NCBI GenBank assembly: GCA_015231915.1
Contig: JADGAR010000002.1
Span: 1 to 64,000 of the forward strand
Length of the DNA stretch: 64,000 bases
Reading direction: 5' to 3'
Source of the DNA: Magnetococcales bacterium
Lineage (GTDB): Bacteria; Pseudomonadota; Magnetococcia; Magnetococcales; Magnetaquicoccaceae
Shown piece after piece: positions 1 through 19,499 of the stretch. The notes beneath the pieces are model-generated. The model worked only from the letters and a program-made list of their open reading frames with translations. It was not told where the DNA came from and did not search any database. A program made the translations under genes and the position numbers. The number at the start of each line of letters is the position of its first letter. The first letter of the stretch is position 1.

Positions 1-3000
1 AGGAAGGTGGTGGTCAGGCCCGCCAGAGAGGTGGTGACCAGATTCACGATCTCCGTGGTGGTCATACCCCCGATCTGGGCCGAGGTGAAGCCCGCCAACT
101 GCGTCGTGGTCAGGATTTTCACCTGGGTTGTGGTCAGGTTGCCCACCTCGGTGCTGGTCAGACCAGACACCTGCGTCGTGGAGAGATTGACCAGATGCGT
201 CGTGGTCATGGAACCCAGTTGCGTGGTGTTCAGGGCACCCACATGGGTCGATTTCAGACCGCTCAACTGGGTCGTGGTGAGATAGGCCACATCCGCCACC
301 GCGATATTGCCGGTCTGGGTCGTGGAGAGCACGCCCATCTGGGTCGAGGTCATCTGGCCCACCTGGCTGGTGGTGAGCGTGGCGATCCCGGTGGTGGTCA
401 GGCCGGAGACCATGGTCGTGGTCAGGCCACCCACCTGGGTCGTGGTCAGGGCATTCACCTGGGTGGTGCTCAACGACGCCGCATGGGTCGATTTCAGGCC
501 GCTCAACTGCGTGGTGTTGAGGCTGACAAGCTCGGTGGTGGTCAGGCTCGCCGACTGGGTCGTGTTCAATCGACCCAGGAAGGTCGTGGAGAGACCCGCC
601 ACCGAGGTGGTGACCAGATTCACGATCTCCGTGGTGGTCATGCCCCCAACCTGCGCCGAGGAGAAACCATCCAACTGCGTCGTGGTGAGAATCTTCACCT
701 GGGTCGTGGTCAGATTGCCCACCTCGGTGCTGCTCAGACCCGCCACCTGGGTGGTGGAGAGATTGACCAGGTTCGTCGTGGTCATGGCAACCAGCTGCGT
801 GGTGCTCATCGCCCCCATCTGGGAGGATTTCAAACCACTCACCTGGGTCGTGTTCAGATAACCGACCGCCGTCGTGCTCAGGCTGCCGGTCTGGGTCGAA
901 TTCAGGATCGCCAGCTGCGCGGTGGCCAGGGTGGCCAGCTTCGTGGTGGTCAGCGCCGCCAACGCCGTGGTGGTCAGCCCGCCCGACTGGGTCGCGTCGA
1001 GGGATGCCAGCTGCGTGGTGGTCAGGATGTTGAACTGGTTGATGTCCATCGCCCCCACCTGGGTCGATTTCAGGCCGTCCAACTGCGTCGTGGCGAGCAC
1101 CTGCAACTCGGTGGTGGTCAAAATGGCGAACTGGGTGGTGTTCAGGCTGCCCAGACCGGTCGAGGTCAAACCGCCCAACTGGGTCGTGGTCAGTCTCACC
1201 ACCTCGGTGGTGGTCAGACCGCCCACCTGCGCCGAGGTCAGCGAGGCCACATGGGTCGTGGTCAGGATGATCACCTGGGTCGTGGTCAGATTACCCATCA
1301 TCGTGCTGTTGAGACCAGCCACCTGCGACGTGGAGAGATTGACCAGTTGCGTGGTGGTGACCGCGCCCAACTGCGTGGTGCTCATCGCGGCCACGTGGGT
1401 CGATTTCAGGCCACCGACCTGCGTGGTGGTCAGGTAGGCGACATCCGCCAGACTCAGGTTGGCGGCATGGGTCGTACCCAGCCCGCCCAGCTGCGTGGTG
1501 CTCATCGCCCCCACCTGGCTGGTGCTCAGATTGGCGACGCCCGTGGTGGTCAAGCCTCCCACCTGGGACAGGCTCAAAGAACCCACCTGGGTGGTGGTCA
1601 GGCTCTTCACCTGGGTGGTCTGCATGGCCGCCACATGGGTGGCTTTCAGACCGCCCATCTGGGTCGTGGACAAGGTGACCAGTTCCGTGGTGGTCAGAAT
1701 GACCGACTGGGTCGTGGTCAACGCACCCAGAGTGGTGGTGCTCAGACCGCTCACCTGGGTGGTGGTCAGGTTGACCAGTGACGTGGTGGTCAGCCCGCCC
1801 GTCTGCGCTGCGGAGAAGGTCTCCAACTGCGTCGTGGCGAGAATTTTCACCTGGGTGGTGCTCAGGCTGCCCACCTCGGTGCTGGTCAGGCCCCCCACCT
1901 GCGTGGTGGTGAAACTGGCCAGGTTCGTCGTGGTCATGCCACCCAACTGTGTGGTGTTCAGGGCGCCCACATGGGTCGATTTCAGACCGGTCAGCTGAGT
2001 CGTGGTCAGATAGGCCACGTCCGCCGCAGCGATGTTGGCAGTCTGCGCCGTGGAGAGTCCACCCAACTGGGTCGAGGTCATCTGACGCATCTGGCTGGTG
2101 GTGAGGGTGGCGATGCCGGTGGTGGTCAGGCCGGAGACCACGGTCGTGGTCAGGCCGCCCACCTGGGTCGTGGTCAGGGCGCTCACCAGCGTGGTGCCCA
2201 GCGAAGCCGCATGGGTCGATTTCAGACCGCTCAACTGGGTGGTGTCGAGATTGATGATCGCGGTGGTGGTCAGGTTCGCCGACTGGGTCGTGTTCAACCG
2301 GCCCAGGAAGGTTGTGGAAAGGCCCGCCACCGAGGTGGTGACCAGATTCACGATCTCTGTGGTGGTCAGCCCCCCCATCTGCGCGGAAGTGAAGCCCCCC
2401 AACTGCGTCGTGGTGAGAATCTTCACCTGGGTCGTGGTCAAGCCACCCACCTCGGTGCTGGTCAGACCCGCCACCTGAGTGGTGGCAAGACTGACCAGGT
2501 TCGTGGTGGTCATGGCAACCAGCTGCGTGGTGCTCAACGCCCCGATCTGGGAGGATTTCAGACCGCCCACCTGGGTGGTGTTCAAATAATTGACGGCGGT
2601 CGTGTTCAGGCTGCCGGTCTGAGTCGTGTTCAACACCGCCAACTGCGAGGTGGCCAGATTGGACACCTGCGTGGTGTTCAACGCGACCACTGCCGTGGTG
2701 GTCATCCCGCCCGACTGGGTCGCGTTGAGGGATGCCAGCTGCGTCGTGGTCAGAATATTGAACTGGCTGGTGCTCAACACCCCGACCTGGGTCGATTTCA
2801 GGCCATCCAACTGGGTGGTGGAGAGCACCTGCAGCTCGGTGGTGTTCAGAATGGCGAACTGGGTCGCAGTCAGGCTGCCCAGATTGGTCGAGTTGAGACC
2901 GGTCAGCTGGGTGGTGGTCAGGTTGACCATCTCCGTGGTGGTCAGGCCGCCCACTTGCGCCGCCGTCAGCGAGGCCACCTGGGTCGTATTCAGGATGGTC

Positions 3001-5330
3001 ACCTGGGTCGTGGTCAGGTTGCCCATGCCGGTGCTGGTCAGACCCGCCACCTGTGAGGTGGAAAGATTGACCAGGTTCGTCGTGGTCATGGAACCCAGCT
3101 GCGTGGTGGACAACGCCCCCACTTGGGTCGATTTCAGGCCGCTGGCCTGGGTCGTGGTCAGATAGGCCACGTCCGCCACCGCGATGCTGCCCGCCTGCTT
3201 CGTGGAGAGCGAACCAAGCTGGGCCGAAGTCATCTGGCCCACCTGGGTCGTGGTGAGGATCGCGATCCCGGAGGTGGTCAGGCCGGAAACCATGGTCGTG
3301 GTCAGGCCGCCCATCTGGGTCGTGGTCAGTGCGCTGACCAGCGTGGTGCTCATGACCGCTGCCTGGGTCGATTTCAGGCCGCTCAACTGCGTGGTGTTGA
3401 GGGTGACGATCCCGGTGGTGCTCAGGATCGCCGCCTGGGTCGTGGCCAACTGACCCAGGAAGGTCGTGGTCAGGCCCGCCACGGAGGTGGTGGCCAGATT
3501 CACCACCTCCGTGGTGGTCAGCCCCCCCACCTGCGCGGAAGAGAAGCCAGCCAGATGCGTCGTGGTGAGGACATTCACCTGGGTCGTGGTCAAACCACCC
3601 ACCTCAGTGCTGGTCAGGCCAGCCACCTGGGTGGTGGAGAGATTGACCAGGTTCGTCGTAGTCATGGCACCCAGCTGCGTGGTGGTCATGGCGCCCACCT
3701 GGGTCGATTTCAGGCCGCTCACCTGGGTGGTGGTCAGATAGGCCACGTCCGCCACCGCGATCTTGCCGGCCTGGGCCGTGGAGAGCGCACCCATCTGGGT
3801 TGCGGTCATCTCACCCACCTGGGTCGTGGTGAGGGTCGCGATCCCGGAAGTGGTCAGGCCGGAGACCACGGTCGTGGTCAGGCCGCCCACCTGGGTCGTG
3901 GTCAGTGAACTGACCAACGTGGTGCTCATCACCGCCGCGTGGGTCGATTTCAGGCCGCTCAGCTGCGTGGTGCTGAGGCTGACGATCCCGGTGGTGCTCA
4001 GGATCGCCGACTGGGTCGTGTTCAACTGCCCCAGGAAGGTCGTGGTCAGCCCCGCCACCGAGGTGGTGGCCAGATTCACCACCTCCGTGGTGGTCAGCCC
4101 CCCCACCTGGGCCGAGGTGAAGCGGGCCAGATGCGTCGTGGTGAGAATATTCACCTGGGTCGTGGTCAAACCACCCACCTCGGTGCTGGTCAGACCCGCC
4201 ACCTGCGTCGTGGTCAGATTGACCAGGTTGGTGGTGGTCATGTAACCCAGCTGCGTGGTGGTCATGGCGCCCACATGGGTCGATTTCAGGCCGCTCACCT
4301 GGGTCGTGGTCAGATAGGCCACGTCCGCCACCGCGATCTTGCCGGCCTGGGCCGTGGAGAGCGCGCCCATCTGGGTCGCGGTCATATCACCCACCTGGGT
4401 GGTGGTGAGGGTCGCGATCCCGGTCGTGGTCAGACCGGAGACCATGGTCGTGGTCAGACCGCCCACCTGGGTCGTGGACAGCGCGCTCACCAGGGTGGTG
4501 CTCAGGGCCGCCGCATGGGTCGCTTTCAGGCCGCTCAACTGCGTGGTGTCGAGGGTGATAATCGCCGTGGTCGTCAGGCTCGCCGACTGGGTGGTTTTCA
4601 TCTGACCCAGGAAGGTCGTGGTCAGCCCCGCCACGGAGGTGGTGGCCAGATTCACCACTTCGGTGGTGGTCAGTCCGCCCACCTGCGCTGAGGAGAAGCC
4701 CGCCAACTGGGTCGTGGTGAGTGTGTTCACCTGCGTCGTGGTCAGGTTACCCACCCTGGTGCTGCTCAAACCCGCCACCTGCGTCGTGGCGAGACTCACC
4801 AGTTGCGTGGTGGTCACCTCGGCCAGCTGCGTCTGGGTCAGGGCGCCCAGGTGGGTCGCTTTCAACCCTCCCAACTGCGTCGTGCTCAGGTAATTGACCT
4901 CGGTGGTGGTCAATCCGCCGAACTGGGCGGTGGTCATCGATCCCAGCCGCGTCGCGGAGAACGCCCCGATCTGGGTGGTGGTCAGATTCGACAACCCGGT
5001 GGTGGTCATCCCGGAGAGCATGGTCGCGGTCAGGCCCCCGATCTGCTGCACGTCCAACTGCTGCAACTGGGTGGTGCTCAACGCCCCTGCCTGCGTGGAC
5101 TTCAACCCCCCCATCTGCGTCGTGGTGATCGCCGACAACTGCGTGGTGGAGAGCGTCGGCAACTGCGTCACGGTGAATCCGCCAGCCTGGGTGCTGTTGA
5201 GGTATCCCACCTGGGTAGTGGTCAACGATGCCAACTGCGTCGTCTTGAAATAGCTGATATCCGCAGCCGCGAAGGTGGCGAGCGTCGTGCTCGTCAGCGC
5301 GGCGACCTGCGTCGTCGACAGCAGTTGGAT
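1..5330. repeat. 24-bp tandem repeat array with a 576-bp higher-order period
   Basis: The DNA repeats every 24 bp, matching the 8-residue protein unit. A landmark block (plus-strand text like ataggccacgtccgccacc) starts near 280, 1434, 2008, 3161, 3737 and 4313. A variant block starts near 857, 2585 and 4890. Spacings are 574-577 bp or about 1,152 bp, that is 24 or 48 units. The 3737 and 4313 blocks look more than 90% alike. Stretches near 575 and 2303 match at a 1,728-bp offset (3 x 576). The pattern indicates repeated in-frame amplification of a 24-unit module. Confidence 0.9.
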
Positions 5331-5348
5331 CATGGTAGAGGTTGCCAT
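1..5348 (-). CDS. Giant octapeptide-repeat protein, probable type I-secreted surface protein (C-terminus outside window)
   Basis: The minus-strand frame starts at the ATG at 5346-5348, behind a good GAGGAG ribosome site, and reads to the window edge without a stop wherever I checked it, giving at least 1,782 residues. After a short start (MATSTMIQLLSTTQVAAL) almost everything is an 8-residue unit of the form T-T-Q-(V/L/I/M)-x-x-(L/F/M)-(T/S/K), about 220 units. Every 24 units a marker such as IAVADVAYL returns, so there is a 192-residue higher-order repeat. The protein is very rich in Thr, Ser, Gln, Leu and Gly and poor in charge. No signal peptide is visible, which fits a C-terminal type I secretion signal beyond the edge. 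The HlyB/HlyD genes directly upstream on the same strand are the obvious exporter. The fold is unknown; a solenoid is a guess. Adhesin or surface-layer roles are inference. Confidence 0.85.
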   Translation of the reverse strand, partial: MATSTMIQLLSTTQVAALTSTTLATFAAADISYFKTTQLASLTTTQVGYLNSTQAGGFTVTQLPTLSTTQLSAITTTQMGGLKSTQAGALSTTQLQQLDVQQIGGLTATMLSGMTTTGLSNLTTTQIGAFSATRLGSMTTAQFGGLTTTEVNYLSTTQLGGLKATHLGALTQTQLAEVTTTQLVSLATTQVAGLSSTRVGNLTTTQVNTLTTTQLAGFSSAQVGGLTTTEVVNLATTSVAGLTTTFLGQMKTTQSASLTTTAIITLDTTQLSGLKATHAAALSTTLVSALSTTQVGGLTTTMVSGLTTTGIATLTTTQVGDMTATQMGALSTAQAGKIAVADVAYLTTTQVSGLKSTHVGAMTTTQLGYMTTTNLVNLTTTQVAGLTSTEVGGLTTTQVNILTTTHLARFTSAQVGGLTTTEVVNLATTSVAGLTTTFLGQLNTTQSAILSTTGIVSLSTTQLSGLKSTHAAVMSTTLVSSLTTTQVGGLTTTVVSGLTTSGIATLTTTQVGEMTATQMGALSTAQAGKIAVADVAYLTTTQVSGLKSTQVGAMTTTQLGAMTTTNLVNLSTTQVAGLTSTEVGGLTTTQVNVLTTTHLAGFSSAQVGGLTTTEVVNLATTSVAGLTTTFLGQLATTQAAILSTTGIVTLNTTQLSGLKSTQAAVMSTTLVSALTTTQMGGLTTTMVSGLTTSGIAILTTTQVGQMTSAQLGSLSTKQAGSIAVADVAYLTTTQASGLKSTQVGALSTTQLGSMTTTNLVNLSTSQVAGLTSTGMGNLTTTQVTILNTTQVASLTAAQVGGLTTTEMVNLTTTQLTGLNSTNLGSLTATQFAILNTTELQVLSTTQLDGLKSTQVGVLSTSQFNILTTTQLASLNATQSGGMTTTAVVALNTTQVSNLATSQLAVLNTTQTGSLNTTAVNYLNTTQVGGLKSSQIGALSTTQLVAMTTTNLVSLATTQVAGLTSTEVGGLTTTQVKILTTTQLGGFTSAQMGGLTTTEIVNLVTTSVAGLSTTFLGRLNTTQSANLTTTAIINLDTTQLSGLKSTHAASLGTTLVSALTTTQVGGLTTTVVSGLTTTGIATLTTSQMRQMTSTQLGGLSTAQTANIAAADVAYLTTTQLTGLKSTHVGALNTTQLGGMTTTNLASFTTTQVGGLTSTEVGSLSTTQVKILATTQLETFSAAQTGGLTTTSLVNLTTTQVSGLSTTTLGALTTTQSVILTTTELVTLSTTQMGGLKATHVAAMQTTQVKSLTTTQVGSLSLSQVGGLTTTGVANLSTSQVGAMSTTQLGGLGTTHAANLSLADVAYLTTTQVGGLKSTHVAAMSTTQLGAVTTTQLVNLSTSQVAGLNSTMMGNLTTTQVIILTTTHVASLTSAQVGGLTTTEVVRLTTTQLGGLTSTGLGSLNTTQFAILTTTELQVLATTQLDGLKSTQVGAMDINQFNILTTTQLASLDATQSGGLTTTALAALTTTKLATLATAQLAILNSTQTGSLSTTAVGYLNTTQVSGLKSSQMGAMSTTQLVAMTTTNLVNLSTTQVAGLSSTEVGNLTTTQVKILTTTQLDGFSSAQVGGMTTTEIVNLVTTSVAGLSTTFLGRLNTTQSASLTTTELVSLNTTQLSGLKSTHAASLSTTQVNALTTTQVGGLTTTMVSGLTTTGIATLTTSQVGQMTSTQMGVLSTTQTGNIAVADVAYLTTTQLSGLKSTHVGALNTTQLGSMTTTHLVNLSTTQVSGLTSTEVGNLTTTQVKILTTTQLAGFTSAQIGGMTTTEIVNLVTTSLAGLTTTF

Positions 5349-5696
5349 TGTGTGAAACTCCTCACAAAAAGAGCGGCGCTGAAATATAAATTAACACGAA
5401 AACCTTATAAACAGGTGCATTGCCAAGCAAGCATTTTTTTGTAGCAAATTGTCCGAATTGGTAAAGAAGATCCGGCTTCCGGACGCATCCCCCCCTCGAT
5501 GCGGAATTGCGGCTACTCGCCTCTTTGCCCTTTATCGGAACGTTCCATACCCTTCTATAGCATTTTCTCGCGCACAAGATCAAAAAAAATCCAATGCAAA
5601 AAAAATACCATGCGAGATCACGCGAGCCTCCCCTCCCTCGCACCCCGCACTCCCCCCCTCCATATCGGCAAATTTTACCCCCATGTCGGCAAACCG
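5349..5696. promoter_or_regulatory. 348-bp gap upstream of the giant repeat gene
   Basis: No convincing gene is seen here. The part next to the giant gene (about 5380-5450) is AT-rich compared with its surroundings and is the likely promoter region, read on the minus strand. I could not pick a clear -35/-10 pair. Two runs of A on the plus strand near 5583-5609 become T-runs for minus-strand transcription leaving the HlyD gene and may be part of a terminator, but I found no strong stem before them. Confidence 0.4.
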
Positions 5697-7094
5697 TCAA
5701 CGCTCCCGGAAACTTTCGTCAAAAATACTCGTCATGGTATACAAGAAATAAGTTATCAAACGCCGTGTTCCCACAGGAATATTATAGGTCAGAGTCATGC
5801 CCCGGATCAATTGCGCCCCCTCAGGCAAATCCTTCAGCTCCTTCTTGGTCAACTTCACCCTGCCGACATGAAAGGCCTGGCCACCCGCCGACGCCGTGGC
5901 CTTCGACAAAAAATCGCGATTCAACTCGTTGCCGGACTGAAACGACTCCTGACTGATGAAACTCAACTCCCCCTCCAACACCCCGAACTTCTGATAGGGA
6001 AAGGCGTTCACCTTCATGGTCACCTTGTCCCCGTTCTTCACGTAGCCCACATCCGAGGCGCCGATCATCACGTCGGCGATCATCACCGCATCCGCCGGCA
6101 CCAGGGTGATCAACAGCTCGGCAGGATTCAACACCGAACCCGTGGCCCGCTTGGCCACATCCAGCACCGTCCCGTCCACCGGCGCGGTCATCACCTCCAT
6201 GTCGCTCATGCGCGAAGCCTTGATCACGTTCTCGTTCAATTTGGCCAGTTCGGCGCGGGAGGAGATCAACTGGTCCAGCAACTGCCGCGACCACTCGTCG
6301 ATGAAGGTCTGCCGCTCCGCCTTCTTGGCCTGGAGATTGTGCTTCATCTCCACAAGACGATTGGAAGCCTCCTGATGCGACTGCTCGGTGCGAATCCGCA
6401 CCACCTGCGAATCCTGATGCTGCAACTGACTCCCGGTGCCGGCCTTCTTGAGGGTCTGGCGCATCCCCTCCACCTCCCTGGAAATCTTCAGCAGCTTGCC
6501 CAGCGCCTCCCGGTCATCCTCCGTGGTGCGCATGTTGGCCTGAATGCGCTGAATCTCCTCGCCGAACATCTGCAAACGCGACTTGTATTGCGCCTGCCTC
6601 TGCTCCATCAGGGCGGACTGCAACCGCTCATCCACGTTCGGCGTACCGCCGAGCACGAACGGCGTGTTGTTGATCTCGCTCTCCAGCCGGCGAATCTGCG
6701 CCTGAATGGCCTGCTTCTGCGCCAGGAGGGTCGCCAGGTCCGCATGCACAAAGGTGGAATCCATCGTGGCGAGGATCTGCCCCCTGGTCACATGATCCCC
6801 GGCCTTGACCTTCAACTCCCGCACGATCGCCCGATCCATGGGCTGCAACTGCAAGGGAGGGGTCTCCGTGGTGAGGCGACCGGTCCCCATCACCACCATG
6901 TCCACCTTCATCACCGAGGCCACCAGAACGATCAACCCCAGAAACAGCAACACCAGATAAAACGTGGACATCAGGAACACCGACGGATGCTCGGCGATGA
7001 TGACATCGATGCCCACCTGAAAGGGAATCGCGTCCTTGGCGATCCGCGGCTCGGAGGAAGACCTCGACCGCCACCAGGCCAAAGGCCCCCTCAT
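5697..7094 (-). CDS. HlyD-family type I secretion membrane-fusion (adaptor) protein
   Basis: 465 residues, starting at the ATG at 7092-7094, which overlaps the TGA of the ABC transporter gene (ATGA) and follows a GGAG. An N-terminal cytoplasmic part of about 40 residues precedes one membrane helix (around LVLLFLGLIVLVASV). The lipoyl-like half motif (PMDRAIVRELKVKAGDHV) follows, then a long coiled-coil hairpin rich in Gln, Glu and Arg, the second lipoyl half (APVDGTVLDVAKRATG), and a beta-barrel C-terminus (SFISQESFQSG, GMTLTYNIPVGTRRLITY). This is the standard order for HlyD/LapC-type adaptors that link an inner-membrane ABC exporter to a TolC-like outer-membrane channel. No TolC homologue lies in the window. 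The probable cargo is the giant repeat protein transcribed next on this strand. Confidence 0.93.
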   Translation of the reverse strand: MRGPLAWWRSRSSSEPRIAKDAIPFQVGIDVIIAEHPSVFLMSTFYLVLLFLGLIVLVASVMKVDMVVMGTGRLTTETPPLQLQPMDRAIVRELKVKAGDHVTRGQILATMDSTFVHADLATLLAQKQAIQAQIRRLESEINNTPFVLGGTPNVDERLQSALMEQRQAQYKSRLQMFGEEIQRIQANMRTTEDDREALGKLLKISREVEGMRQTLKKAGTGSQLQHQDSQVVRIRTEQSHQEASNRLVEMKHNLQAKKAERQTFIDEWSRQLLDQLISSRAELAKLNENVIKASRMSDMEVMTAPVDGTVLDVAKRATGSVLNPAELLITLVPADAVMIADVMIGASDVGYVKNGDKVTMKVNAFPYQKFGVLEGELSFISQESFQSGNELNRDFLSKATASAGGQAFHVGRVKLTKKELKDLPEGAQLIRGMTLTYNIPVGTRRLITYFLYTMTSIFDESFRER

Positions 7095-9283
7095 GACTCC
7101 GCCCCTTCCCTGGGCTGGGGTTTGTACTGGTTCTGCTGCTGCCACAAATGCCGATAGATCTCGCACCGTTCCAGCAGCACCTCGTGGGGCGCGAAATCCA
7201 CCACCTCGCCCTTCTCCAGCACCAGGATCGCGTCCGTCGAGACCAGCGAGGAGAGCCGGTGGGAAATGATGAGCATGGTGCGGTTGCGGGCGATCTGATC
7301 CAGGCTGTTGCGGATGATCGCCTCGCTCTCCGGATCCAGGGCGCTGGTGGCCTCGTCGAAAATCAGCAGACGCGGACTCACCAGCAGGGAACGGGCAATC
7401 GCGATGCGCTGCCGCTGCCCACCCGAAAAGTTGGTGGCGCTCTCCTCCACCCAGGTCTCGTAGGAGTGGGGCAGACGGTCGATGAACTCATCGGCGCCCG
7501 CCAGCCGCGCCGCGTCGATCACCTCCACCAGCGAGGCGTCCGGTCGCGCCGCCGCGATGTTCTCCCGGATCGTCCCCCGGAACAGGATGTTCTCCTGCAA
7601 CACCACCCCGATGCTGCGCCGCAAATGGGAAAGATCGAAATGACGGATGTCCGTGCCATTCAAATGGATCAACCCCTCCTGGGCGGTGTGAATCCCCTGG
7701 ATGAGCCGCGTCAAGGTGGTCTTGCCCGAACCGGACCTCCCCACCACCCCGATCACCTGCCCCTCGCGCACCTTGAAATTGACCCGCTTGAGGGCCGGCA
7801 TCACGGTCTTGTCGTAGCGAAAGGTGACGTTGGCAAACTCGATCTCCCCGGTGATGGGAACCCGCAAACCCCGCTGGTTCGGATCCCGTTCCGGAGGATG
7901 GTTCATCACCGAACCGAGCATGCGCACCGCCAGGGCGGTCTGCTGGTATTCGTTGATCAGCCCCACGATCTGCACCAGGGGACCACTGACCCGTCCGGAG
8001 AGCATGTTGAACGCCACCAACCCCCCCACGCTCATGTTGCCATCGAAGACCTCCACGGCCCCCAGCACGATCACCGAGAGCTGCATCCCCGATTGCAGGA
8101 CGTTGGTCAGCACCATGCCGCGAATCCCCAGCATCCCCACATTGGCCCGGCTGAGAATCGCATTCGCCACCTTGCGGTCCCAGGAGGCCTTGCGCAGGGA
8201 CTCCAACGCCATGGATTTGACGGCACGCATGCCATGCAGGGTCTCCACCAGGTCGGCCTGCCGGCTCCCCTCGGCGCTGTACAGCTCTTCCAGTCGCCGG
8301 CGGAAGACCGGCAACATCAGACCGATCACCGCAGCCATCGCCATGGTGAACATCACCACCACAAGGGTCAGCGTCCCGCTGTAAAGCGACAACGCCACCA
8401 ACAAAAACGGCACCGTGATCGAATCCAGCAAGGCATGAAACAGGGTGCCGGTCAGGAAATTGCGCACCACCTCGGTCTGCTGCATGTGGCGAATCAGAAT
8501 CCCGGTGGTGTGGTTCTCGAAGAACGGCATCGGCAGATGCAATAAATGATGGAACGAACGCGAAATCAGACGCGCGTCGATCTTGTTGGTGGCGATCAGC
8601 ATCAGGTTATGTCTTACATAATTGAAGACACCCTCGAAAGCCATGAAAATTACAAGAATCATCGTCAACGTCATCAGGGTCTGGTAACTCTTGTGAGGAA
8701 TCACCTTGTCGATCATGGTATTGAAAAACAGCGGAGGGACCATGCTGGTGAAACTGGAGATGATGACCGCGATGGAGACGTTGCGCAGCAACTTGCCCTG
8801 CTTGAGGATCTCCGGCAAGAACCAGCGCAATCCGAAAGGCCGGGAGGCCTCGACCGTGGCGTCGAAATCACGCTTGCACAGGACGATGCGGCCATTCCAC
8901 ACCGCCTCGAACTGCCGGCGGTCCATCATGACGGGTCCGGCCTGCTCGGTCTGGGGATCCATGACCGTGGCCTGTTCCACCCCCTTGGGGTTCTTGGCCA
9001 CACTGCTCACGATCACCCAGTGGCCACTCTTCTTTTCGGCCATCACCGGATAGGCGCTCCCCAGGGAGGCGAGATCCTTCCAGCGGCGGTTGACCACCAC
9101 CACCCCCTTCAACCCGGCCTCGTGCATCAGGCGCAACACCGAACCCACGATGTCCTGCTCCTGGGCGCCCAGCAACTGCTCCGGGGTCACGTCCGCCCCA
9201 TGATGACGGCATACCAGGAACAGGCAGCGCAAGGCCGACAAAAACGGCGAAATGTTGGTCACCGTCGTGGTCACGAAAAACAA
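7091..9283 (-). CDS. Type I secretion ABC transporter with C39-like (inactive peptidase) domain, HlyB type
   Basis: About 730 residues. Residues 1-135 are a C39 peptidase-like domain. The place of the catalytic Cys is occupied by SALRCLFLVCRHHG, which lacks the Q-x-x-D-C-G pattern, although GHW and MDP remain. This is how HlyB-type transporters look, which recognise but do not cleave cargo. A six-helix membrane domain follows, then an ATPase domain with Walker A GRSGSGKTT (near residue 519), signature NFSGGQRQR and Walker B LLIFDEATSALD. No ATG is in frame: the start is the TTG at 9283 or, with better spacing from GGGGA, the GTG at 9274. Its stop overlaps the HlyD start. Divergent from the glycosyltransferase gene across 71 bp. 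Confidence 0.93.
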   Translation of the reverse strand: MFFVTTTVTNISPFLSALRCLFLVCRHHGADVTPEQLLGAQEQDIVGSVLRLMHEAGLKGVVVVNRRWKDLASLGSAYPVMAEKKSGHWVIVSSVAKNPKGVEQATVMDPQTEQAGPVMMDRRQFEAVWNGRIVLCKRDFDATVEASRPFGLRWFLPEILKQGKLLRNVSIAVIISSFTSMVPPLFFNTMIDKVIPHKSYQTLMTLTMILVIFMAFEGVFNYVRHNLMLIATNKIDARLISRSFHHLLHLPMPFFENHTTGILIRHMQQTEVVRNFLTGTLFHALLDSITVPFLLVALSLYSGTLTLVVVMFTMAMAAVIGLMLPVFRRRLEELYSAEGSRQADLVETLHGMRAVKSMALESLRKASWDRKVANAILSRANVGMLGIRGMVLTNVLQSGMQLSVIVLGAVEVFDGNMSVGGLVAFNMLSGRVSGPLVQIVGLINEYQQTALAVRMLGSVMNHPPERDPNQRGLRVPITGEIEFANVTFRYDKTVMPALKRVNFKVREGQVIGVVGRSGSGKTTLTRLIQGIHTAQEGLIHLNGTDIRHFDLSHLRRSIGVVLQENILFRGTIRENIAAARPDASLVEVIDAARLAGADEFIDRLPHSYETWVEESATNFSGGQRQRIAIARSLLVSPRLLIFDEATSALDPESEAIIRNSLDQIARNRTMLIISHRLSSLVSTDAILVLEKGEVVDFAPHEVLLERCEIYRHLWQQQNQYKPQPREGAES

Positions 9284-9354: not shown

Positions 9355-12300
9355 ATGAAATCCGGAAAACCACCTGTCCGCACCACGCCCCAACGCACCG
9401 ACCAGGAACGGTCGCTGCTGCAACAAGCCCTCCAAATGCATCAAGCAGGCCAACTGCAAGAGGCCGAAACCCTCTACCGGCGTCTGCTCGAGGAACGGCC
9501 CAACCATCAGGACGGCTTGAACCTGTTGGGCTATCTGCTCTACCAGCGCGGCGAGAAGGAACAGGGGGCCGAATTCGTCCGCAAGGCGATCGCCATCGAT
9601 CCCAACCAGCCGCTGTACTACAACAATCTGGGCATCATCGTCCAGAACATGGGCCAACTCGAGGAGTCCGTCACGCTCTACGAAAAGGCCCTCGCCATCA
9701 ACCCGAACTATCACGCGGCCCACAGCAATCTCGGCACCGTGCTCCAGAACCTGGGCAGAACCGAAGAAGCCCTGGAACGCCACCGCAGGGCACTGGAACT
9801 CCAACCGGAATTCTTCGAGGCCCACTGCAATCTCGGCAACCTGCTGTGCGAACTGGGCCGAATGGAAGAAGCCATCGCCGCCTACCAAAAGGCCCTCGAC
9901 ATCCAGCCCGATTACGTCACCGCCCTGCACAACCTCGGCTACGTAATGCAAAAATTGAGCCGACTCGACGAGGCCCTGCCCCCCCTGCGCAAGGCGCTGG
10001 AAATCAAACCGGATTACCTGGAAGCCTACAACACCATGGGCAATGTCTTCCAGGAAATGGGCCGCTTCACCGATGCCCTCGCCTCCTACCAGCAGGCCCT
10101 CGACATCAATCCCAACTACCACGAGGCCATCTGCAACATGGGCAACGTCCTGTGCGACCAAGGCCGCCTGGACGAATCCATCGCCTGCCATAAACGGGCA
10201 TTGGCCATCAAACCCGATCTGCACGAATCCTATACGCATATGGCCAACGCCCTGCAACTGCAAGGCAACCTCCCCGAAGCCATCCTGAGCTACCGCAAGG
10301 CCCTGGAAATCAAACCCGGCGACGAAACCGCCCTGGAAAACCTCGGCGTCGCCTGCAACGCCATCGGCGACCTGCCCGGGGCCATCGACTGCAACCGGCG
10401 ACTGCTCGCCAAAAAGGACGACAACCCCAATATCCACGTCAACCTGATCAATCTCCTGCGGCAAAGCTGCGACTGGCAGGACATCCCCGCCCTCTTCGAC
10501 CGCATGATGACCCTGTTCGCCTCCGGAGACAAACTGGTCAACCCCTTCGTCTTCCTGACCCTGGATACCACCCCGGAACAACAAAAACGCAGCGGCGCGA
10601 TCTACATGCGGAAAAAATATCCCGTGCCCGCCTCCCTGGTCCATCTGCACCGCTACGACCCCAAGCCGCAACGCATCAAGATCGGCTACCTCTCCTGCGA
10701 CTTCCTCAACCACGCCACCTCCATCCTGATGGCGGAATTGATCGAACTCCACGACCGGGAACGGTTCGAAATCCGTATCTACTCCTACAGCGACAACGAT
10801 GGCCGCGAGATGCGCCAACGCATCAGCGCTGCCAGCGACGCCTTCATCGACATCCTCCACCTCGACCATGCCGCCGCAGCCCGCAAGATCGCCGAGGACG
10901 GCGTCCATATCCTGGTGGAACTGAAAGGCTTCACCAGGGGCGCGCGCCTGGAAATCTCCGCCCTGCGGCCCGCCCCGATCCAGGTCAACTGGCTCGGCTA
11001 TCCCGGCTCCATGGGCGCACCCCACATCGATTACATCCTCGCCGATCCCTTCATCATCCCCCATGGCGCGGAACCCGGCTACTCGGAACAGGTGGTCCGC
11101 CTCCCCCACTGCTACCAGCCCAACGACCGGGAACGGTTCTGGCCGGAACCGGGCGCACCCCGCTCGGCCTACGGCCTGCCGGAACAGGGCCTGGTCTTCT
11201 CCAACTTCAATCAGACCTACAAAATCACCCCGGAGATCTTCGCCGCCTGGATGACCGTCCTGCGCCAGGTCCCGGAGAGCTGTCTGTGGCTGCTGGAGTC
11301 CAATCCTCTGGTCGCCGCCAACCTCGCAAAAGAGATCGCCGCCCACGGCATCGCCCAGGAACGGGTCATCTTCGCGCCCAAGCTGCCGGTTTCGGAACAC
11401 CTCGCCCGTTACCACCTGGTGGACCTGGTGCTGGATACCTACCCGGTCGCCTCCCACACCACCGCCAGCGACTCCCTGTGGATGGGCTGTCCGCTCCTCA
11501 CCCTGGCCGGGGAGACCTTCGTCTCGCGGGTGGCCGGCAGCCTGCTGACCACCGTCGGACTGCCGGAACTGATCACCCGCTCCCTGGAAGAATATACCGC
11601 CCTCGCCATCGAACTGGGCAAAAATCCCCCCCGGCTGCGGGAACTGCGGGAACGTCTGGGCGCCAACCGCCTCTCCTGCCCCCTCTTCGACACCCCGCGC
11701 TTCACCCGCCACCTGGAGGCCGCCTTCGAGGGGATGTGGCAACGCCACGAGGCGGGTCTGCCGCCCCAGGGGTTCGATGTCACCCCGCTGCCCGCCGACG
11801 CGGCGATACCTGCCCCGGCGCGGCCCGCCCCCCGCGCGACACCCGCGCCAGACGCGACTGCGGAACCGAACGGAAAAATCCTGCTGAGCATCTGCATCCC
11901 CACCTTCAACCGCCAGGCCCTGCTCGCCCAGACCCTGGATCACCTGAGCTGGACCCGCGATGCACCGGGAGCCATCGAGATCATCGTCTCCGACGACGCC
12001 TCCTGCGACGCCACCCAGCGGGTCGCCAGGGAGCAAGGCGAGCGCTTTCCCCACTTTCGCCTGATCCGCCAACCCCGCACCCTGGGCGCGGTCAAGAACG
12101 GCCTGGCCGCCCTGCATCAGGCGCGGGGACGTTACTGTCTCCTCCTGTCGGACGACAACCGTCTGCTCCCTGGGCCGCTGATGGCCGAAATCGCCTTTCT
12201 GGAGCAACACCGCGACATCATCGCCTCCCACGCCCCCTGGCGCTACGTCAACGACGTGACCAGCACCGACATGGGCCTCTTCAATGCCCTGGACGAGGCG

Positions 12301-13134
12301 ATCGGCTTCCGTCGCGCGCAAGGCGCGGAATTGTTCAACTTCCTCATGCAGCGTCACATCTTTCCGGAAAAGGGGATCTACCGCACGGAACCCTACCTGC
12401 GGGTATTGATGGAGTGGCCCTCCGCCCATCACCCGTTCGTCGCCACCTTCCGCGCCCTGGAACTGGGCGCCATCCGCTTTCAGCCTGAACCATTCCTCAC
12501 GGTGGTGACCCAATCCCCCATCGCCTGCCTCAACCAGGAGAAACAGGGCATCAAGGAGTTCACCCACCAACTCGACGCCTATCGCGCCGGTCTGGAGATC
12601 GCCACCTCCCTGGCCATGAGCGAGGCCGGCATGACCGATTTCAACCCGGACAACCGCATCCAGGTGCTGGATTCGATCAACGATTTCCTGGCGCGGCGCA
12701 TCCAGGTGGCCGCCAATATCGCCCTGGCCAATCACGATTTCATTCAGGCCGGCACCCTGCTCAAACGGGTGCTGCTCTGGTCCAAGAGCGACGACATCCG
12801 CGCGCGCATCCGGCACATGGAACCGGAGGTGGTCACCGGTGCGGCCTATCAGGCGGTGCGGGAGCGGTTCGCCCTCCTCGGCCCGGCCAAGCGCTGCCTG
12901 CTGTGCGACATCTCCAACCCCGATGTGGTGCGTGACGGATTGGCCCATCTGGCCCCGGACATGCCGGTGACGGAATGCGACCTCGCCGGCGCCCTCGCCG
13001 ATCCGGAACGGGAAGCGTGCCTGATGCTCACGGAAAACGAACCGTCCCGCGCCGCCCTGCTGGCATCCGGCCTCGCCCCGGGACGGGTGATGCTGATCGC
13101 CGATCTGTTGCGCATCTTCCGGATCACCGGCTGA
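9355..13134 (+). CDS. TPR - O-GlcNAc transferase-like (SPINDLY/GT41) - GT2 glycosyltransferase fusion
   Basis: 1,259 residues. Residues about 20-360 are roughly ten TPR units (for example AEFVRKAIAIDPNQPLYYNN). Residues 430-800 match the catalytic part of the O-GlcNAc transferase/SPINDLY family: YLSCDFLNHATS carries the conserved His, FSNFNQTYKITP the conserved Lys, and LDTYPVASHTTASDSLW plus GETFVSRVAGSLL the sugar-nucleotide site. An Ala/Pro-rich linker (about 815-838) leads to a family-2 glycosyltransferase domain from about 840 (SICIPTFNRQ, VSDDASCD, LLSDDNRLL) and a C-terminal helical part. By family knowledge the TPR/GT41 part glycosylates Ser/Thr or Asn of proteins; the GT2 part could extend the glycan. 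The neighbouring Thr-rich giant protein is the natural candidate substrate (inference). The last 212 codons are duplicated at 15213. Confidence 0.92.
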   Translation: MKSGKPPVRTTPQRTDQERSLLQQALQMHQAGQLQEAETLYRRLLEERPNHQDGLNLLGYLLYQRGEKEQGAEFVRKAIAIDPNQPLYYNNLGIIVQNMGQLEESVTLYEKALAINPNYHAAHSNLGTVLQNLGRTEEALERHRRALELQPEFFEAHCNLGNLLCELGRMEEAIAAYQKALDIQPDYVTALHNLGYVMQKLSRLDEALPPLRKALEIKPDYLEAYNTMGNVFQEMGRFTDALASYQQALDINPNYHEAICNMGNVLCDQGRLDESIACHKRALAIKPDLHESYTHMANALQLQGNLPEAILSYRKALEIKPGDETALENLGVACNAIGDLPGAIDCNRRLLAKKDDNPNIHVNLINLLRQSCDWQDIPALFDRMMTLFASGDKLVNPFVFLTLDTTPEQQKRSGAIYMRKKYPVPASLVHLHRYDPKPQRIKIGYLSCDFLNHATSILMAELIELHDRERFEIRIYSYSDNDGREMRQRISAASDAFIDILHLDHAAAARKIAEDGVHILVELKGFTRGARLEISALRPAPIQVNWLGYPGSMGAPHIDYILADPFIIPHGAEPGYSEQVVRLPHCYQPNDRERFWPEPGAPRSAYGLPEQGLVFSNFNQTYKITPEIFAAWMTVLRQVPESCLWLLESNPLVAANLAKEIAAHGIAQERVIFAPKLPVSEHLARYHLVDLVLDTYPVASHTTASDSLWMGCPLLTLAGETFVSRVAGSLLTTVGLPELITRSLEEYTALAIELGKNPPRLRELRERLGANRLSCPLFDTPRFTRHLEAAFEGMWQRHEAGLPPQGFDVTPLPADAAIPAPARPAPRATPAPDATAEPNGKILLSICIPTFNRQALLAQTLDHLSWTRDAPGAIEIIVSDDASCDATQRVAREQGERFPHFRLIRQPRTLGAVKNGLAALHQARGRYCLLLSDDNRLLPGPLMAEIAFLEQHRDIIASHAPWRYVNDVTSTDMGLFNALDEAIGFRRAQGAELFNFLMQRHIFPEKGIYRTEPYLRVLMEWPSAHHPFVATFRALELGAIRFQPEPFLTVVTQSPIACLNQEKQGIKEFTHQLDAYRAGLEIATSLAMSEAGMTDFNPDNRIQVLDSINDFLARRIQVAANIALANHDFIQAGTLLKRVLLWSKSDDIRARIRHMEPEVVTGAAYQAVRERFALLGPAKRCLLCDISNPDVVRDGLAHLAPDMPVTECDLAGALADPEREACLMLTENEPSRAALLASGLAPGRVMLIADLLRIFRITG

Positions 13135-13139
13135 GACCT
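12498..13139 (+). repeat. 642-bp direct repeat, original copy
   Basis: From the cacggtggtgaccc at 12498 to gagacct at 13139 the sequence recurs at 15213-15854 (offset 2,715). The two translations are identical for all 211 shared residues and I saw no base difference. This copy is in its natural place as the 3' end of the glycosyltransferase gene. Confidence 0.9.
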
Positions 13140-13210
13140 TCCGGAGGGCACCGGACCAATAGGCATGATGATCCTCTTTCTCGAAATCGCCTGACAATTT
13201 TCTAGTGTCA

Positions 13211-13894: not shown

Positions 13895-14042
13895 TCACGC
13901 CAGGGAGTTGCTGCACTTGGCACGCACGGAACATCGCGCCATGACTGGCATGCGGAATCATGAGGTGTTCTTTGACGCCATTGTCGGGTTCCTTGCCCAG
14001 CAGGCGGCAGAAAAGGGAGTCAAGGTTGCCTTGCCGATTTGA
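13881..14042 (+). pseudogene. Truncated HEPN-domain protein
   Basis: 53 residues starting MKSIDHARELLHLARTEHRA and holding the HEPN core motif FLAQQAAEKGVKV before a stop. Full HEPN proteins of this type are about 130 residues; the intact neighbour has HVQQAVEKGIKAW at the same place. It is the toxin half of a decayed MNT-HEPN pair directly upstream of the intact one. Confidence 0.6.
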
Positions 14043-14049
14043 CGAGAAT

Positions 14050-14388
14050 ATGCCCCCCATGACGATCACCGAAACCGACCTTACCGCCATGGTGCGCAGC
14101 ATCGTTGCAGCCGTGCAGCCGGAGCAGGTCATCCTGTTCGGCTCGCTGGCCCGAGGGGAGGCCAGCGAGGCGTCAGACATCGACCTTTTGATCGTAGAGC
14201 AGGAGGGATTCACGGGACGGAGCCGTTGGCGTGAGTTGCAGACCATTCGCCAGGCGATTTCCGATTTCCGCATTGCAAAGGACATCCTGCTTTACAGCCA
14301 GGAAGAAGTGGCGCGCTGGCGGGATTCGTTGAACCATGTGGTAGGCCATGCCCTGAGGGAAGGGAGATTGCTTTATGAAAGACCCTGA
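14050..14388 (+). CDS. mntA: MNT-type nucleotidyltransferase, antitoxin of HEPN-MNT pair
   Basis: 112 residues. The minimal nucleotidyltransferase signature is complete: LFGSLARGEASEASDIDLLI gives GS-x(10)-D-x-D. In the HEPN/MNT family such proteins silence the HEPN RNase by adding AMP to it. Two starts are possible (14050 and 14059); I use the first. The 3' end overlaps the HEPN gene by 14 bp, showing translational coupling. A decayed copy of the same pair lies just upstream. Confidence 0.8.
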   Translation: MPPMTITETDLTAMVRSIVAAVQPEQVILFGSLARGEASEASDIDLLIVEQEGFTGRSRWRELQTIRQAISDFRIAKDILLYSQEEVARWRDSLNHVVGHALREGRLLYERP

Positions 14389-14800
14389 TCAGGCCACCAT
14401 GCTTTTGCGCATGGCTGAAAAAGATTACCGCGCCTTGCTGGTGATGCAGGATCCAGAGGCGGTTGCCACGGAAATTTTCGGGCTGCATGTCCAGCAGGCT
14501 GTCGAAAAGGGAATCAAGGCGTGGTTATGCCTGCTTGGTGTGCCTTATCCCGGAAAACATGACCTCGATGAATTGGCCACCCTGCTTGGCAAAGCCGGGG
14601 AATCCATACCCGCTGCATTCGTCCCGCTTCTGACCTACACCGATTTTGCGGTATCCTTCCGGTACGAGGCATTTGACGATTTCGACGACGATATTGACCG
14701 GCAGGCCACAACCACCTTGGTGGCAGGGTTCTTGAAGCATGTGAACCATCTGCTGAAGGGAGCATTCCCCGTTTGTCAACGAGATCGTGTTAGCGTTTAA
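14375..14800 (+). CDS. HEPN-domain toxin of HEPN-MNT pair
   Basis: 141 residues. The helix signature HVQQAVEKGIKAW, the central KHDLDELATLL and the C-terminal FRYEAFDDFDDDID mark a HEPN-domain protein of the kind encoded with MNT nucleotidyltransferases. The canonical RNase motif R-x(4-6)-H is not obvious, so catalysis is uncertain. It overlaps the MNT gene, which is the usual arrangement. It probably acts as a regulated RNase toxin, by family knowledge only. Confidence 0.75.
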   Translation: MKDPDQATMLLRMAEKDYRALLVMQDPEAVATEIFGLHVQQAVEKGIKAWLCLLGVPYPGKHDLDELATLLGKAGESIPAAFVPLLTYTDFAVSFRYEAFDDFDDDIDRQATTTLVAGFLKHVNHLLKGAFPVCQRDRVSV

Positions 14801-14875: not shown

Positions 14876-15067
14876 ATGACCATATTGACGAGCAGAACAT
14901 TCAGTGGGCGCAGGTTCAGTTATCGAACAGCCGATAGGGGGCAAAGGCATCAAATCATTCTCGAACACAAAAATTTCCTTGCCCTCCGGGAGGGGTCCAT
15001 ATATGTCCCCAGTTTAATTTATAGCCATAAGGGAAATAGGTATAGTGTCCCCAGATTTCAAGTGTAA
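14876..15067 (+). pseudogene. Phd/YefM-like antitoxin remnant
   Basis: A very strong ribosome site (GGGAGGAGG, 7 bp from the ATG) starts MTILTSRTFS, similar to the MTxLTSREFN start of Phd/YefM antitoxins. Later ADRGQRHQIILEHKNFLAL recalls the ITDRG...VLL..xxYxxL segment, with the middle apparently deleted. The frame then runs into copies of the dispersed repeat and ends inside them. A PIN toxin C-terminus survives at 16290, so this may be the 5' end of a split Phd-VapC locus. Confidence 0.35.
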
Positions 15068-15211
15068 GGGAAATAGGTATAGTGTCCCCAGATTTCAAGC
15101 AAGTGTCCCCAGATTTCAAGCACAAGTGTAAGGGAAATAGGTATAGTGTCCCCAGATTTCAATGCACAAGCACAAGTGTAAGGGAAATAGGTATAGTGTC
15201 CCCAGATTTCA
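15028..15211 (+). repeat. Array of four dispersed-repeat copies (GGTATAGTGTCCCC type)
   Basis: Copies of taagggaaataggtatag followed by tgtccccagatttc start at 15028, 15065, 15129 and 15179, with a partial copy at 15100. Short spacers such as aagcacaagtg recur between them. The last copy abuts the 642-bp duplicated glycosyltransferase fragment with no spacer. Variants with tgtcaccggattt occur at 17019-17253, inverted ones at 17982-18142. I suspect a REP-like family moved by a transposase in trans; no such transposase is in the window. Confidence 0.8.
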
Positions 15212-15212
15212 C

Positions 15213-15854
15213 CACGGTGGTGACCCAATCCCCCATCGCCTGCCTCAACCAGGAGAAACAGGGCATCAAGGAGTTCACCCACCAACTCGACGCCTATCGC
15301 GCCGGTCTGGAGATCGCCACCTCCCTGGCCATGAGCGAGGCCGGCATGACCGATTTCAACCCGGACAACCGCATCCAGGTGCTGGATTCGATCAACGATT
15401 TCCTGGCGCGGCGCATCCAGGTGGCCGCCAATATCGCCCTGGCCAATCACGATTTCATTCAGGCCGGCACCCTGCTCAAACGGGTGCTGCTCTGGTCCAA
15501 GAGCGACGACATCCGCGCGCGCATCCGGCACATGGAACCGGAGGTGGTCACCGGTGCGGCCTATCAGGCGGTGCGGGAGCGGTTCGCCCTCCTCGGCCCG
15601 GCCAAGCGCTGCCTGCTGTGCGACATCTCCAACCCCGATGTGGTGCGTGACGGATTGGCCCATCTGGCCCCGGACATGCCGGTGACGGAATGCGACCTCG
15701 CCGGCGCCCTCGCCGATCCGGAACGGGAAGCGTGCCTGATGCTCACGGAAAACGAACCGTCCCGCGCCGCCCTGCTGGCATCCGGCCTCGCCCCGGGACG
15801 GGTGATGCTGATCGCCGATCTGTTGCGCATCTTCCGGATCACCGGCTGAGACCT
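15213..15854 (+). pseudogene. Duplicated 3' fragment of the TPR-GT41-GT2 gene
   Basis: Same 642 bp as 12498-13139, including the stop codon and eight bases beyond it. It lacks a start of its own; the frame is entered only through the upstream repeat array, so it is a non-functional fragment. Its left junction is fused to a dispersed-repeat copy and its right junction to sequence leading into an IS66 remnant. The absence of visible differences points to a recent copy, gene conversion, or an assembly join. Confidence 0.9.
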
Positions 15855-15859
15855 GCCAC

Positions 15860-16961: not shown

Positions 16962-16994
16962 AAACAAATTTAACTTATGGCTATAAATTTAATC

Positions 16995-17253
16995 GGCATG
17001 GTGTCCCCCTATTTTCTGATAAGGGAAATAGGTATGGTGTCACCGGATTTACGTGTCACCGGATTTACGGGCGTGATAAGGGAAATAGGTATGGTGTCAC
17101 CGGATTTACGGGCGAGGTATGGTGTCACCGGATTTACGGGCGATTCTAGCCATGAGATCATCATATCAGATTATGGCCATAAGGGAAATAGGTATGGTGT
17201 CACCAGATTTTTGCTGGCTATAAGGGAAATAGGTATGGTGTCACCAGATTTTT
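16995..17253 (+). repeat. Dispersed-repeat array, GGTATGGTGTCACC variant
   Basis: A divergent unit (catggtgtccccctatttt) at 16998 is followed by full copies of ataagggaaataggtatgg-tgtcacc starting near 17019, 17075, 17180 and 17220. Partial copies lie at 17053 and 17115, with a gggcg spacer. The array overlaps the 3' end of the low-GC gene at 17218. Inverted copies on the other side of that gene (17982-18142) make an inverted-repeat bracket. Confidence 0.8.
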
Positions 17254-17949
17254 GCGATTTCTATTTGGCCCCCCTATTTTGTGGTGCCCCCCCCCGTAGA
17301 TTAGCGCGTAGGTGTCTCTGGCAAACTCAACAATAGCATTATTGTTCTTTATGATGCTATCGCGGATCTCGTTATAGTTAATTGCTATAACCTCCTTGAA
17401 ATACTCTTGCACTTTAGGATGTTCCCAGCGCCACCCTTGGGACGACTCCATAAAAATCACGAATGTCTCGAACCGATCAGAATGACGTGTGATCTCAGCA
17501 ATAGCATTCCGACATTGATCGTAGTTATCGAATTTGAATACCTGTCCCTTTGTTTCCAGTGACCTGAGCTTGATTGCTGACGGTTGGGAGACTTTTATCA
17601 AGTCGACAAGACGTTTGAATTCTGGTTGAGCGCACTGCTGTAAATAGGTATTATACTTGCTTATTATTTCTGTCATGTCACAACCAAGCAGTGAAATGTT
17701 TAAAGATTCAACTCCTATAGCAGATATCTCTAAGACTTTAACATGCTTATATAATTCTGCGATGTATGTCTGTGCGGCTTCAATAAGCGAATCAAGGAAT
17801 TCTGCTTCCCTTTTAGCTTTGTCCTGACGCTGCCAGTTTCTCAATGCACTAAACGCGATGCCAACCATTGCCACAGAGGCAAACGCCTTTACAACTTCAA
17901 GCAAATCAAATTTGACAATATATTCAATAATATTAAACATCCGCGCCAT
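17218..17949 (-). CDS. Membrane-anchored hypothetical protein in a low-GC island
   Basis: 243 residues. One N-terminal membrane helix (VVKAFASVAMVGIAFSAL) is followed by an Arg/Lys/Gln-rich linker and a mostly helical soluble region with no motif I recognise. The base composition is clearly more AT-rich than all neighbours, suggesting transfer from another genome. The last residues (about 228-243, ending LVTPYLFPL) are encoded by the dispersed repeat, so the natural C-terminus has been replaced or extended. The gene is bracketed by repeats in opposite orientations. Confidence 0.6.
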   Translation of the reverse strand: MARMFNIIEYIVKFDLLEVVKAFASVAMVGIAFSALRNWQRQDKAKREAEFLDSLIEAAQTYIAELYKHVKVLEISAIGVESLNISLLGCDMTEIISKYNTYLQQCAQPEFKRLVDLIKVSQPSAIKLRSLETKGQVFKFDNYDQCRNAIAEITRHSDRFETFVIFMESSQGWRWEHPKVQEYFKEVIAINYNEIRDSIIKNNNAIVEFARDTYALIYGGGHHKIGGPNRNRKNLVTPYLFPL

Positions 17950-17981: not shown

Positions 17982-18142
17982 GAAATCGGGGAATACCATA
18001 CTAGTTAAATTTATAGCCATAAGAGAAATGGATATGGCTTTCCTGAAATCGGGGGAAATCCGGGGACACCATACCTATTCCGGGGGGAAAATCCGGGGAC
18101 ACCATACCTATTCCGTAAATCGGTGGACACCCGCCTAATTCC
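17982..18142 (-). repeat. Dispersed-repeat array, inverted orientation
   Basis: Read on the minus strand this is the same family as at 15028 and 17019. Clear copies (aaatccggggacaccatacc then tattcc) lie at 18054-18080 and 18089-18116; a diverged one (aaatcggtggacacccgcc) ends at 18142. A degraded pair lies at 17982-18034, where ccataagagaaatggatatg even reads in plus orientation. Confidence 0.75.
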
Positions 18143-18182: not shown

Positions 18183-18590
18183 TCACAAACTTTCCCAATC
18201 TTCCACCAGCAAACCATCCACACGCTGGAACTCACTGGTGTTGTGGGTGATCAGGATGGCATTGAGGGAGTGGGCATGGGCGGCAATGAGGGTATCCAAT
18301 GGGCCTATCGGTTGACCTTTGCGCGTCAAGTCGCACCGCAATTCCGCTGCCACTGCCGACTGATGCTCTCCAAAATCCATTACACGGATATAGCCAAGAA
18401 AATGTTCAAGATTTGCGCGGTTCTTTTCCACTTGGCGAGACCGGCACACCCCCACCCGTAACTCATAGTGAACGATTTGCGAGATGGCAACTTCGCCCGG
18501 TGGCACATCCAGCAATCGACGACGCAAAACAGGTGGTGTGCCTTTGATCACCCCAATACAGGCGTTGGTATCCAACATGTAGCGGATCAC
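18183..18590 (-). CDS. vapC: VapC-family PIN-domain ribonuclease toxin
   Basis: 135 residues. The PIN acidic residues are all in place: MLDTNACI (first Asp), HYELRVGV (Glu), GPLDTLIAAHA (second Asp) and the closing THNTSEF loop. VapC toxins are Mg-dependent RNases that cut tRNA or rRNA. The start ATG overlaps the TGA of the antitoxin gene (ATGA), as expected for a coupled pair. Full length for the family. Confidence 0.92.
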   Translation of the reverse strand: MIRYMLDTNACIGVIKGTPPVLRRRLLDVPPGEVAISQIVHYELRVGVCRSRQVEKNRANLEHFLGYIRVMDFGEHQSAVAAELRCDLTRKGQPIGPLDTLIAAHAHSLNAILITHNTSEFQRVDGLLVEDWESL

Positions 18591-18970: not shown

Positions 18971-19077
18971 GCCGATACCCGCATCATGAATCCTGCGTAA
19001 ATTCCAGGCAAACCATGCCAAATTTGTCGTTCGGCACAAAATGACAGAGCTTTCGACGGCACTGCCTAAATGAAAAT

Positions 19078-19442: not shown

Positions 19443-19499
19443 AGGCCTGACGCAACTATAGAAAAACATGAAACAAGGAAAAATGCAAGCGAAAAAAAA

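Follow-up and report, generated by a model that had tools for sequence, protein, structure and literature searches.

An ALTTAQ octad-repeat protein of a Magnetococcales bacterium: a predicted alpha-solenoid encoded beside type I exporter and TPR-GT41 glycosyltransferase genes

Organization of the locus

The region analysed here (the window) is a stretch of 64,000 nucleotides from a Magnetococcales bacterium (GenBank assembly GCA_015231915.1) and starts at base 1 of contig JADGAR010000002.1 (C56). A repeat gene runs off this end on the minus strand. Its frame starts with an ATG (position 5348) immediately preceded by an AGGAG ribosome site, is free of stops and is open at its 3' end. ABC transporter and HlyD adaptor genes lie directly upstream on the same strand, and a TPR-GT41 glycosyltransferase gene is divergent to them (Table 1). 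The leader of the repeat gene holds only weak promoter-like matches in a consensus scan. A plus-strand open frame over the array (3..1781) mirrors the repeat and was rejected as a gene, and an Rfam search gave no match within the array. Elsewhere, the window carries two likely toxin-antitoxin pairs, nucleotidyltransferase/HEPN (13960-14800, plus strand) and PIN/DUF433 (18183-19039, minus strand), and a tmRNA match (RF00023, 114 bits) overlapping a permuted-tmRNA match (RF04321, 51.6 bits) at 19078-19561 on the minus strand.

Table 1. Positions of the features of the repeat locus within the window
Feature	Position	Strand	Basis
Giant ALTTAQ octad-repeat protein, N-terminal 1,782 aa	3..5348	-	PF20080; octad frame; AF2 (predicted solenoid)
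Eight consecutive 192-aa (576-bp) super-repeats, blocks 0-7	162..4769	-	Block identities; dN/dS
Super-repeat blocks listed	4194-4769, 3618-4193, 3042-3617, 2466-3041, 1890-2465, 1314-1889, 738-1313, 162-737	-	
Leader region between HlyD gene and repeat gene	5349..5696	-	Sequence; consensus scan
HlyD-family type I secretion adaptor	5697..7166	-	TIGR01843 match of 254 bits
Type I secretion ABC transporter with C39-like domain	7091..9283	-	ABC_membrane; ABC_tran; Peptidase_C39
TPR-GT41 (O-GlcNAc-transferase/SPINDLY-like) glycosyltransferase with GT2 domain	9355..13134	+	PF13844; TPR; PF00535

The missing C-terminus was located on contig C69, which opens with 786 residues of ALTTAQ repeat followed by a stop. 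The end of C56 and the start of C69 have 25 bp in common, present once in each, and the two join in frame and in 24-octad phase. The genes 3' of the array on C69, which from their reading we take to be ElyC-, XerC-, DUF484-, rhodanese- and threonine-synthase-like, also follow the ALTTAQ gene in the sister genome G002 (loci L038/L076). Collapsed repeat copies at the junction are possible. The joined protein has at least 2,561 residues (258 kDa, about 320 octads) and consists of octads almost from residue one to a short hydrophobic tail. Of its residues, 923 are Ser or Thr, a single one is Trp and none is Cys; Asp and Glu together make up 2.3%.

Levels of repetition

The window frame comprises 222 octads (consensus L-T-T-T-Q-V-G-G) without a slip of the eight-residue register, as expected from the preliminary description, which had reported at least 1,782 residues of octad units on this strand. 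Amino acid identity at lag 8 is 0.36, compared with 0.13 (maximum 0.15) when residues are shuffled. At lags of 192 and 576 residues it rises to 0.65 and 0.68, respectively, and shuffling of whole octads gives 0.40 (maximum 0.44) at these lags; the 24-octad order (192 residues, 576 bp) is therefore a second, real level of organization. Autocorrelation of the array DNA is highest at 1,728 bp (0.76) and next at 576 bp (0.74), so that both periods previously noted, a 576-bp super-repeat and a further match at 1,728 bp, were recovered. The longer one accompanies block pairs three apart (3 with 6, 4 with 7), which are 80-84% identical. Pairwise identity of the 192-residue blocks is 54-88% at the amino acid level. 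Since dS is about 0.2-0.4 among close copies and reaches about 1.1 elsewhere, and dN/dS between blocks is mostly 0.24-0.6 (about 0.24-0.5 for close copies), the copies are old and constrained. Sister genomes carry uninterrupted versions of 1,968-2,942 residues with the identical 24-octad period; in-array stops occur among the sister genomes in G001 alone (locus L078), on a draft contig.

Family membership and distribution

The unit had been described as matching no RTX nonapeptide, pentapeptide repeat or familiar adhesin module. To place it outside the known families is incorrect, because the window protein matches Pfam PF20080 (ALTTAQ repeat, ALTTAQ_rpt) at E=4e-184, with 596.4 bits over 60 significant stretches and a curated cut-off of 26.4 bits; the C69 part scores 302 bits. 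Thus the octad belongs to a known family, yet one without a described role, the Pfam entry being a repeat name only. No NCBIfam model matched the repeat protein, and weak Pfam matches to Gp5_trimer_C and DUF6955 were rejected as compositional. A literature search, thin on subscription papers, did not turn up any paper on ALTTAQ, PF20080 or HeliScrew, or anything of use concerning giant repeat proteins in magnetic cocci.

An ALTTAQ gene is present in 9 of the 11 genomes of the genus (window genome counted). Relatives occur in Caulobacter, Phenylobacterium, Methylobacterium, Rhizobium, Bradyrhizobium, Niveispirillum, Paramagnetospirillum, Nitrosomonadales, Burkholderiales and others; among the viral contigs searched there were no confirmed ones. 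They range in length from about 640 to 5,700 residues, which argues against selection for a fixed length. The earlier proposal of a three-level order produced by in-frame amplification of long modules, under selection for length and register, consequently stands for the three levels, for amplification and for register and fails for length. The octad frame is retained, as is the angular register that the predicted solenoid would have (see below).

The window genome also encodes a second ALTTAQ protein, of which the C-terminal 333 residues adjoin an NtrC-type regulator gene on contig C128 (L010, 8515-9516, minus strand; cut by the contig end), and a 971-residue tail-fibre-like protein on contig C58 (L011, 5416-8331, minus strand), in which a few ALTTAQ octads lie within a phage-type fibre that also has a carbohydrate-binding module 5/12 and ends in a Peptidase_S74 chaperone. 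In a second genus of the family (G011; contigs C40, C29, C28 and C62, L080-L085) there are several still larger ALTTAQ proteins, of up to 5,675 residues, with fewer Thr and no adjoining GT41 gene within the fetched stretches.

Membership of the host in the Magnetococcales brings to mind the sheath of the flagellar bundle of MO-1, a calcium-assembled glycoprotein of >350 kDa with a left-handed helical structure (PMC7175107). Compared by description, the repeat protein could be such a sheath. However, acidic residues are so scarce that calcium binding is disfavoured, a search for RTX and other calcium motifs gave none, and many of the bacteria over which the ALTTAQ family is spread are not magnetotactic; a role as sheath is thus highly improbable.

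Predicted fold

AlphaFold2 modelling of two super-repeats with 36 further sequences (pLDDT 89.5, pTM 0.75) places a helix, mostly of 5-6 residues, in nearly every octad. Another super-repeat pair, modelled from single sequence, has the register unchanged at lower confidence (66.4). The structure prediction called for at the outset accordingly gives an alpha-solenoid with one short helix per octad. The octad sequence agrees with this fold, since a helix capping box can be made by Thr or Ser at position 2, as the cap, together with Gln at position 5, which would close it. Leu at position 1 would face the core, and positions 3 and 4 would expose their hydroxyls.

The sole specific match among solved sequences is PDB 9zem 'HeliScrew4', which has LTPEQIAA-type octads and aligns over 101 residues in a profile search (E=6.6e-19). 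The octads are alike, although the 9zem chain, which may be designed or natural, has just 120 residues. Leucine-rich-repeat PDB matches ranking below it look compositional and were rejected. Foldseek against the PDB and viral models gave loose superhelix matches only. None of the solved folds in its list is close; the best PDB match was mesothelin (TM about 0.25), and 9zem was absent from the list.

Super-repeat length and solenoid pitch

Residue size and hydropathy oscillate significantly along the octads at 0.290-0.2975 cycles per octad, that is 3.36-3.45 octads per turn, in 19 of 20 ALTTAQ proteins. This peak is the strongest in most of the 20, a stronger rival being present in L040 and L058; in L077 it is weak and not significant. 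It is independent of super-repeat length, which is 24, 31, 17, 10, 7 or 55 octads, and further spectral peaks near 0.4175 and 0.125 lie where the aliased second and third harmonics are expected. At about 3.43 octads per turn, 24 octads would make seven turns. Across the family, super-repeats of 7, 10, 17, 24, 31 and 55 octads come close to whole multiples of 24/7 octads. The preferred lags (7, 10, 14, 17, 24, 31, 34, 38, 41, 45, 48, 55 and 58 octads) correspond to 2.04, 2.92, 4.08, 4.96, 7.00, 9.04 ... units of 24/7, and on average they deviate from whole turns by 0.058, compared with 0.25 for random lags. This figure is descriptive, as the data themselves supplied the lags and some lags are sums of others.

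The satellite-like order of the array therefore looks like the pitch of the putative solenoid. It is proposed that the array resembles a satellite because recombination duplicated blocks of near-whole turns: duplications keeping the angular register would be tolerated, and others not. Common alpha-solenoids rise by roughly 1 nm per turn, and 93 turns would give, as a rough estimate, a rod near 90 nm.

The wide length variation among relatives could also suggest selfish or neutral satellite-like expansion with a functionless product. Such an origin is extremely improbable in view of the 320 octads without a stop or frame slip, the dN/dS of close copies, a conserved gene neighbourhood and a pitch common to distant proteins.

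Type I exporter genes

The HlyD gene is recognized above the cut-off of its model. The best NCBIfam model for the ABC transporter is TIGR01846, at 596 bits, below its cut-off of 726. The Peptidase_C39 match of the ABC protein begins at profile position 14, past the catalytic Cys region, and by eye the C39-like domain has no Cys at the expected position. The ABC-HlyD pair upstream of the ALTTAQ gene is kept in five sister genomes and at L039, L054, L057 and L064; a type I exporter is absent from the fetched flanks of many alphaproteobacterial ALTTAQ loci. No GG leader was found in the repeat protein, and its short hydrophobic C-terminal tail is a shared feature. From these sequence features it seems probable that the protein is exported uncleaved by ABC-HlyD via its C-terminal tail.

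Linkage to TPR-GT41 glycosyltransferase genes

The glycosyltransferase matches PF13844 (E=6e-101) and PF00535 (E=9e-18) and has about nine TPR units. GT41, ABC, HlyD and ALTTAQ genes occur together in unchanged order in G002, G003, G005, G008 and G010. In the window genome, 58 match pieces represent at least 25 GT41 genes. Many of these stand in tandem on contig C133, and C78, C22, C33, C86 and other contigs carry more (L106-L111); several sisters have about 3-6. Proximity in the window genome alone is thus weak evidence. Within the window, the 3' end of the GT41 gene (12498-13142) is duplicated 2.7 kb away at 15213-15857 (645 bp, 99.8% identical), and short AAGGGAAATAGGTATAGTGTCCCCAGATTT-like interspersed repeats at 15017-15211, 16969-17255 and 18051-18131 bound the copy.

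Adjoining GT41 and ALTTAQ genes recur across Proteobacteria. Among 37 ALTTAQ loci from public genomes, several of the GT41-negative ones being cut contigs, 18 have a GT41 gene, mostly just downstream of the ALTTAQ gene. A census over sixteen genomes identified six in which GT41 is represented by one gene (each time as two match pieces), and this gene lies within about 0.4 kb of an ALTTAQ gene in five (G209, G211, G212, G213 and G217; binomial tail about 1e-12, a rough value that assumes a chance of 0.3% per genome and ignores relatedness). The sixth, the Burkholderiaceae genome G218, has no such linkage; there and in Roseateles G221 the GT41 genes are elsewhere in the genome. ALTTAQ-linked GT41 genes span several subclades, and well-supported branches force at least 6 label changes. 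GT41-linked ALTTAQ proteins exceed unlinked ones in Thr (23% vs 13.6%) and in the share of Ser/Thr at octad position 4 (0.76 vs 0.45), where several unlinked proteins have Asp/Glu. Phylogeny and the use of a Thr-rich query both confound this contrast.

These observations bear on whether the octads are glycosylated at all. The repeat protein might be secreted by the type I pathway without sugars, GT41 adjacency reflecting shared surface-gene islands, the enzyme modifying flagellin or other proteins, and Thr serving for capping. Thr/Ser at position 2 would cap the predicted helix anyway, some ALTTAQ proteins have no GT41 neighbour, and FlmG-type TPR glycosyltransferases act on flagellins (PMC7591256). 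However, the immediate adjacency in the five single-GT41 genomes, the recurrence of linkage in several GT41 subclades and the extra Thr at the non-capping position 4 of GT41-linked proteins make this explanation unlikely. It is quite improbable that the enzyme is instead an HMW1C-type N-glycosyltransferase acting on Asn-X-Ser/Thr of the octads rather than on Thr/Ser. HMW1C does belong to GT41 and attaches N-linked sugar to a giant adhesin that is secreted (PMC3012730, PMC3983070), and the 2,561-residue protein has 51 N-x-S/T sites, but these are few beside its Ser/Thr content, and the enzyme bears TPR units, as do OGT, SPINDLY and FlmG.

Proposed role

The reading we favour, and consider somewhat better supported than all others together, is that of a giant surface rod, an alpha-solenoid glycosylated in the cytoplasm and exported by the type I pathway. 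Each octad of the Thr-rich protein would form one short helix, with about 3.43 octads per turn, and recombination would duplicate blocks with a near-whole number of turns, generating the satellite-like array. The protein would be made in the cytoplasm, where the product of the adjoining TPR-GT41 gene may add sugars to exposed Thr/Ser. The ABC-HlyD exporter would then release it uncleaved through its short C-terminal signal, giving a long glycosylated surface rod, presumably an adhesin or matrix fibre. Against this, about half of the ALTTAQ loci lack a GT41 gene (some being cut contigs).

A broader and more tentative possibility, to which we give rather less than an even chance, is that such proteins form a class of giant surface glycoproteins that is widespread yet undescribed. 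They would be alpha-solenoids with one helix per octad and super-repeats set by pitch, whose hydroxyl-rich surface receives sugars from dedicated TPR-GT41 enzymes ahead of type I export. The action of TPR-GT41 on octads would then be a case of one solenoid reading another.

The ALTTAQ family, so far a repeat name, gains a concrete and testable role. It would probably add a new kind to the secreted proteins that cytoplasmic GT41 enzymes modify. Moreover, near-whole turns of about 3.43 octads each provide a simple physical rule for higher-order periods in long coding arrays. To the knowledge of PF20080 the analysis adds a pitch rule of 24/7, the link to a type I exporter and the partnership with GT41.

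Comparison with known systems

The giant type I adhesins of the RTX and Bap/LapA types are repeat proteins encoded beside ABC-HlyD exporters with a non-cleaving C39-like domain. The window locus resembles them in its giant repeat protein and ABC-HlyD genes, and perhaps in its C39-like domain. In contrast to them, the window protein has no match to an RTX motif or Ig-like domain and consists of octads almost throughout; GGxGxD and GxGxD have 0 matches in the joined 2,561 residues, which hence contain no GGxGxDxxx nonapeptides of the RTX kind.

In the HMW1/HMW1C system of Haemophilus influenzae, a cytoplasmic GT41 enzyme is the third partner of the secretion system of a giant surface protein (PMC3983070, PMC3012730). 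The likeness lies in the pairing of a giant secreted protein with a GT41 partner, known here from genes and prediction. HMW1 uses two-partner secretion (type Vb) and carries an N-linked sugar, whereas the window locus has ABC-HlyD genes, a TPR-bearing GT41 and a predicted alpha-solenoid. The repeat protein gave no Pfam match to a TpsA secretion domain, beta-helix or TpsB pore, and its predicted fold is all-alpha. FlmG of Caulobacter crescentus is a cytoplasmic O-glycosyltransferase with TPR and GT-B domains that acts on an extracellular structural protein (PMC7591256). Its substrates are flagellins, whereas the proposed substrate of the window GT41 is the octad solenoid.
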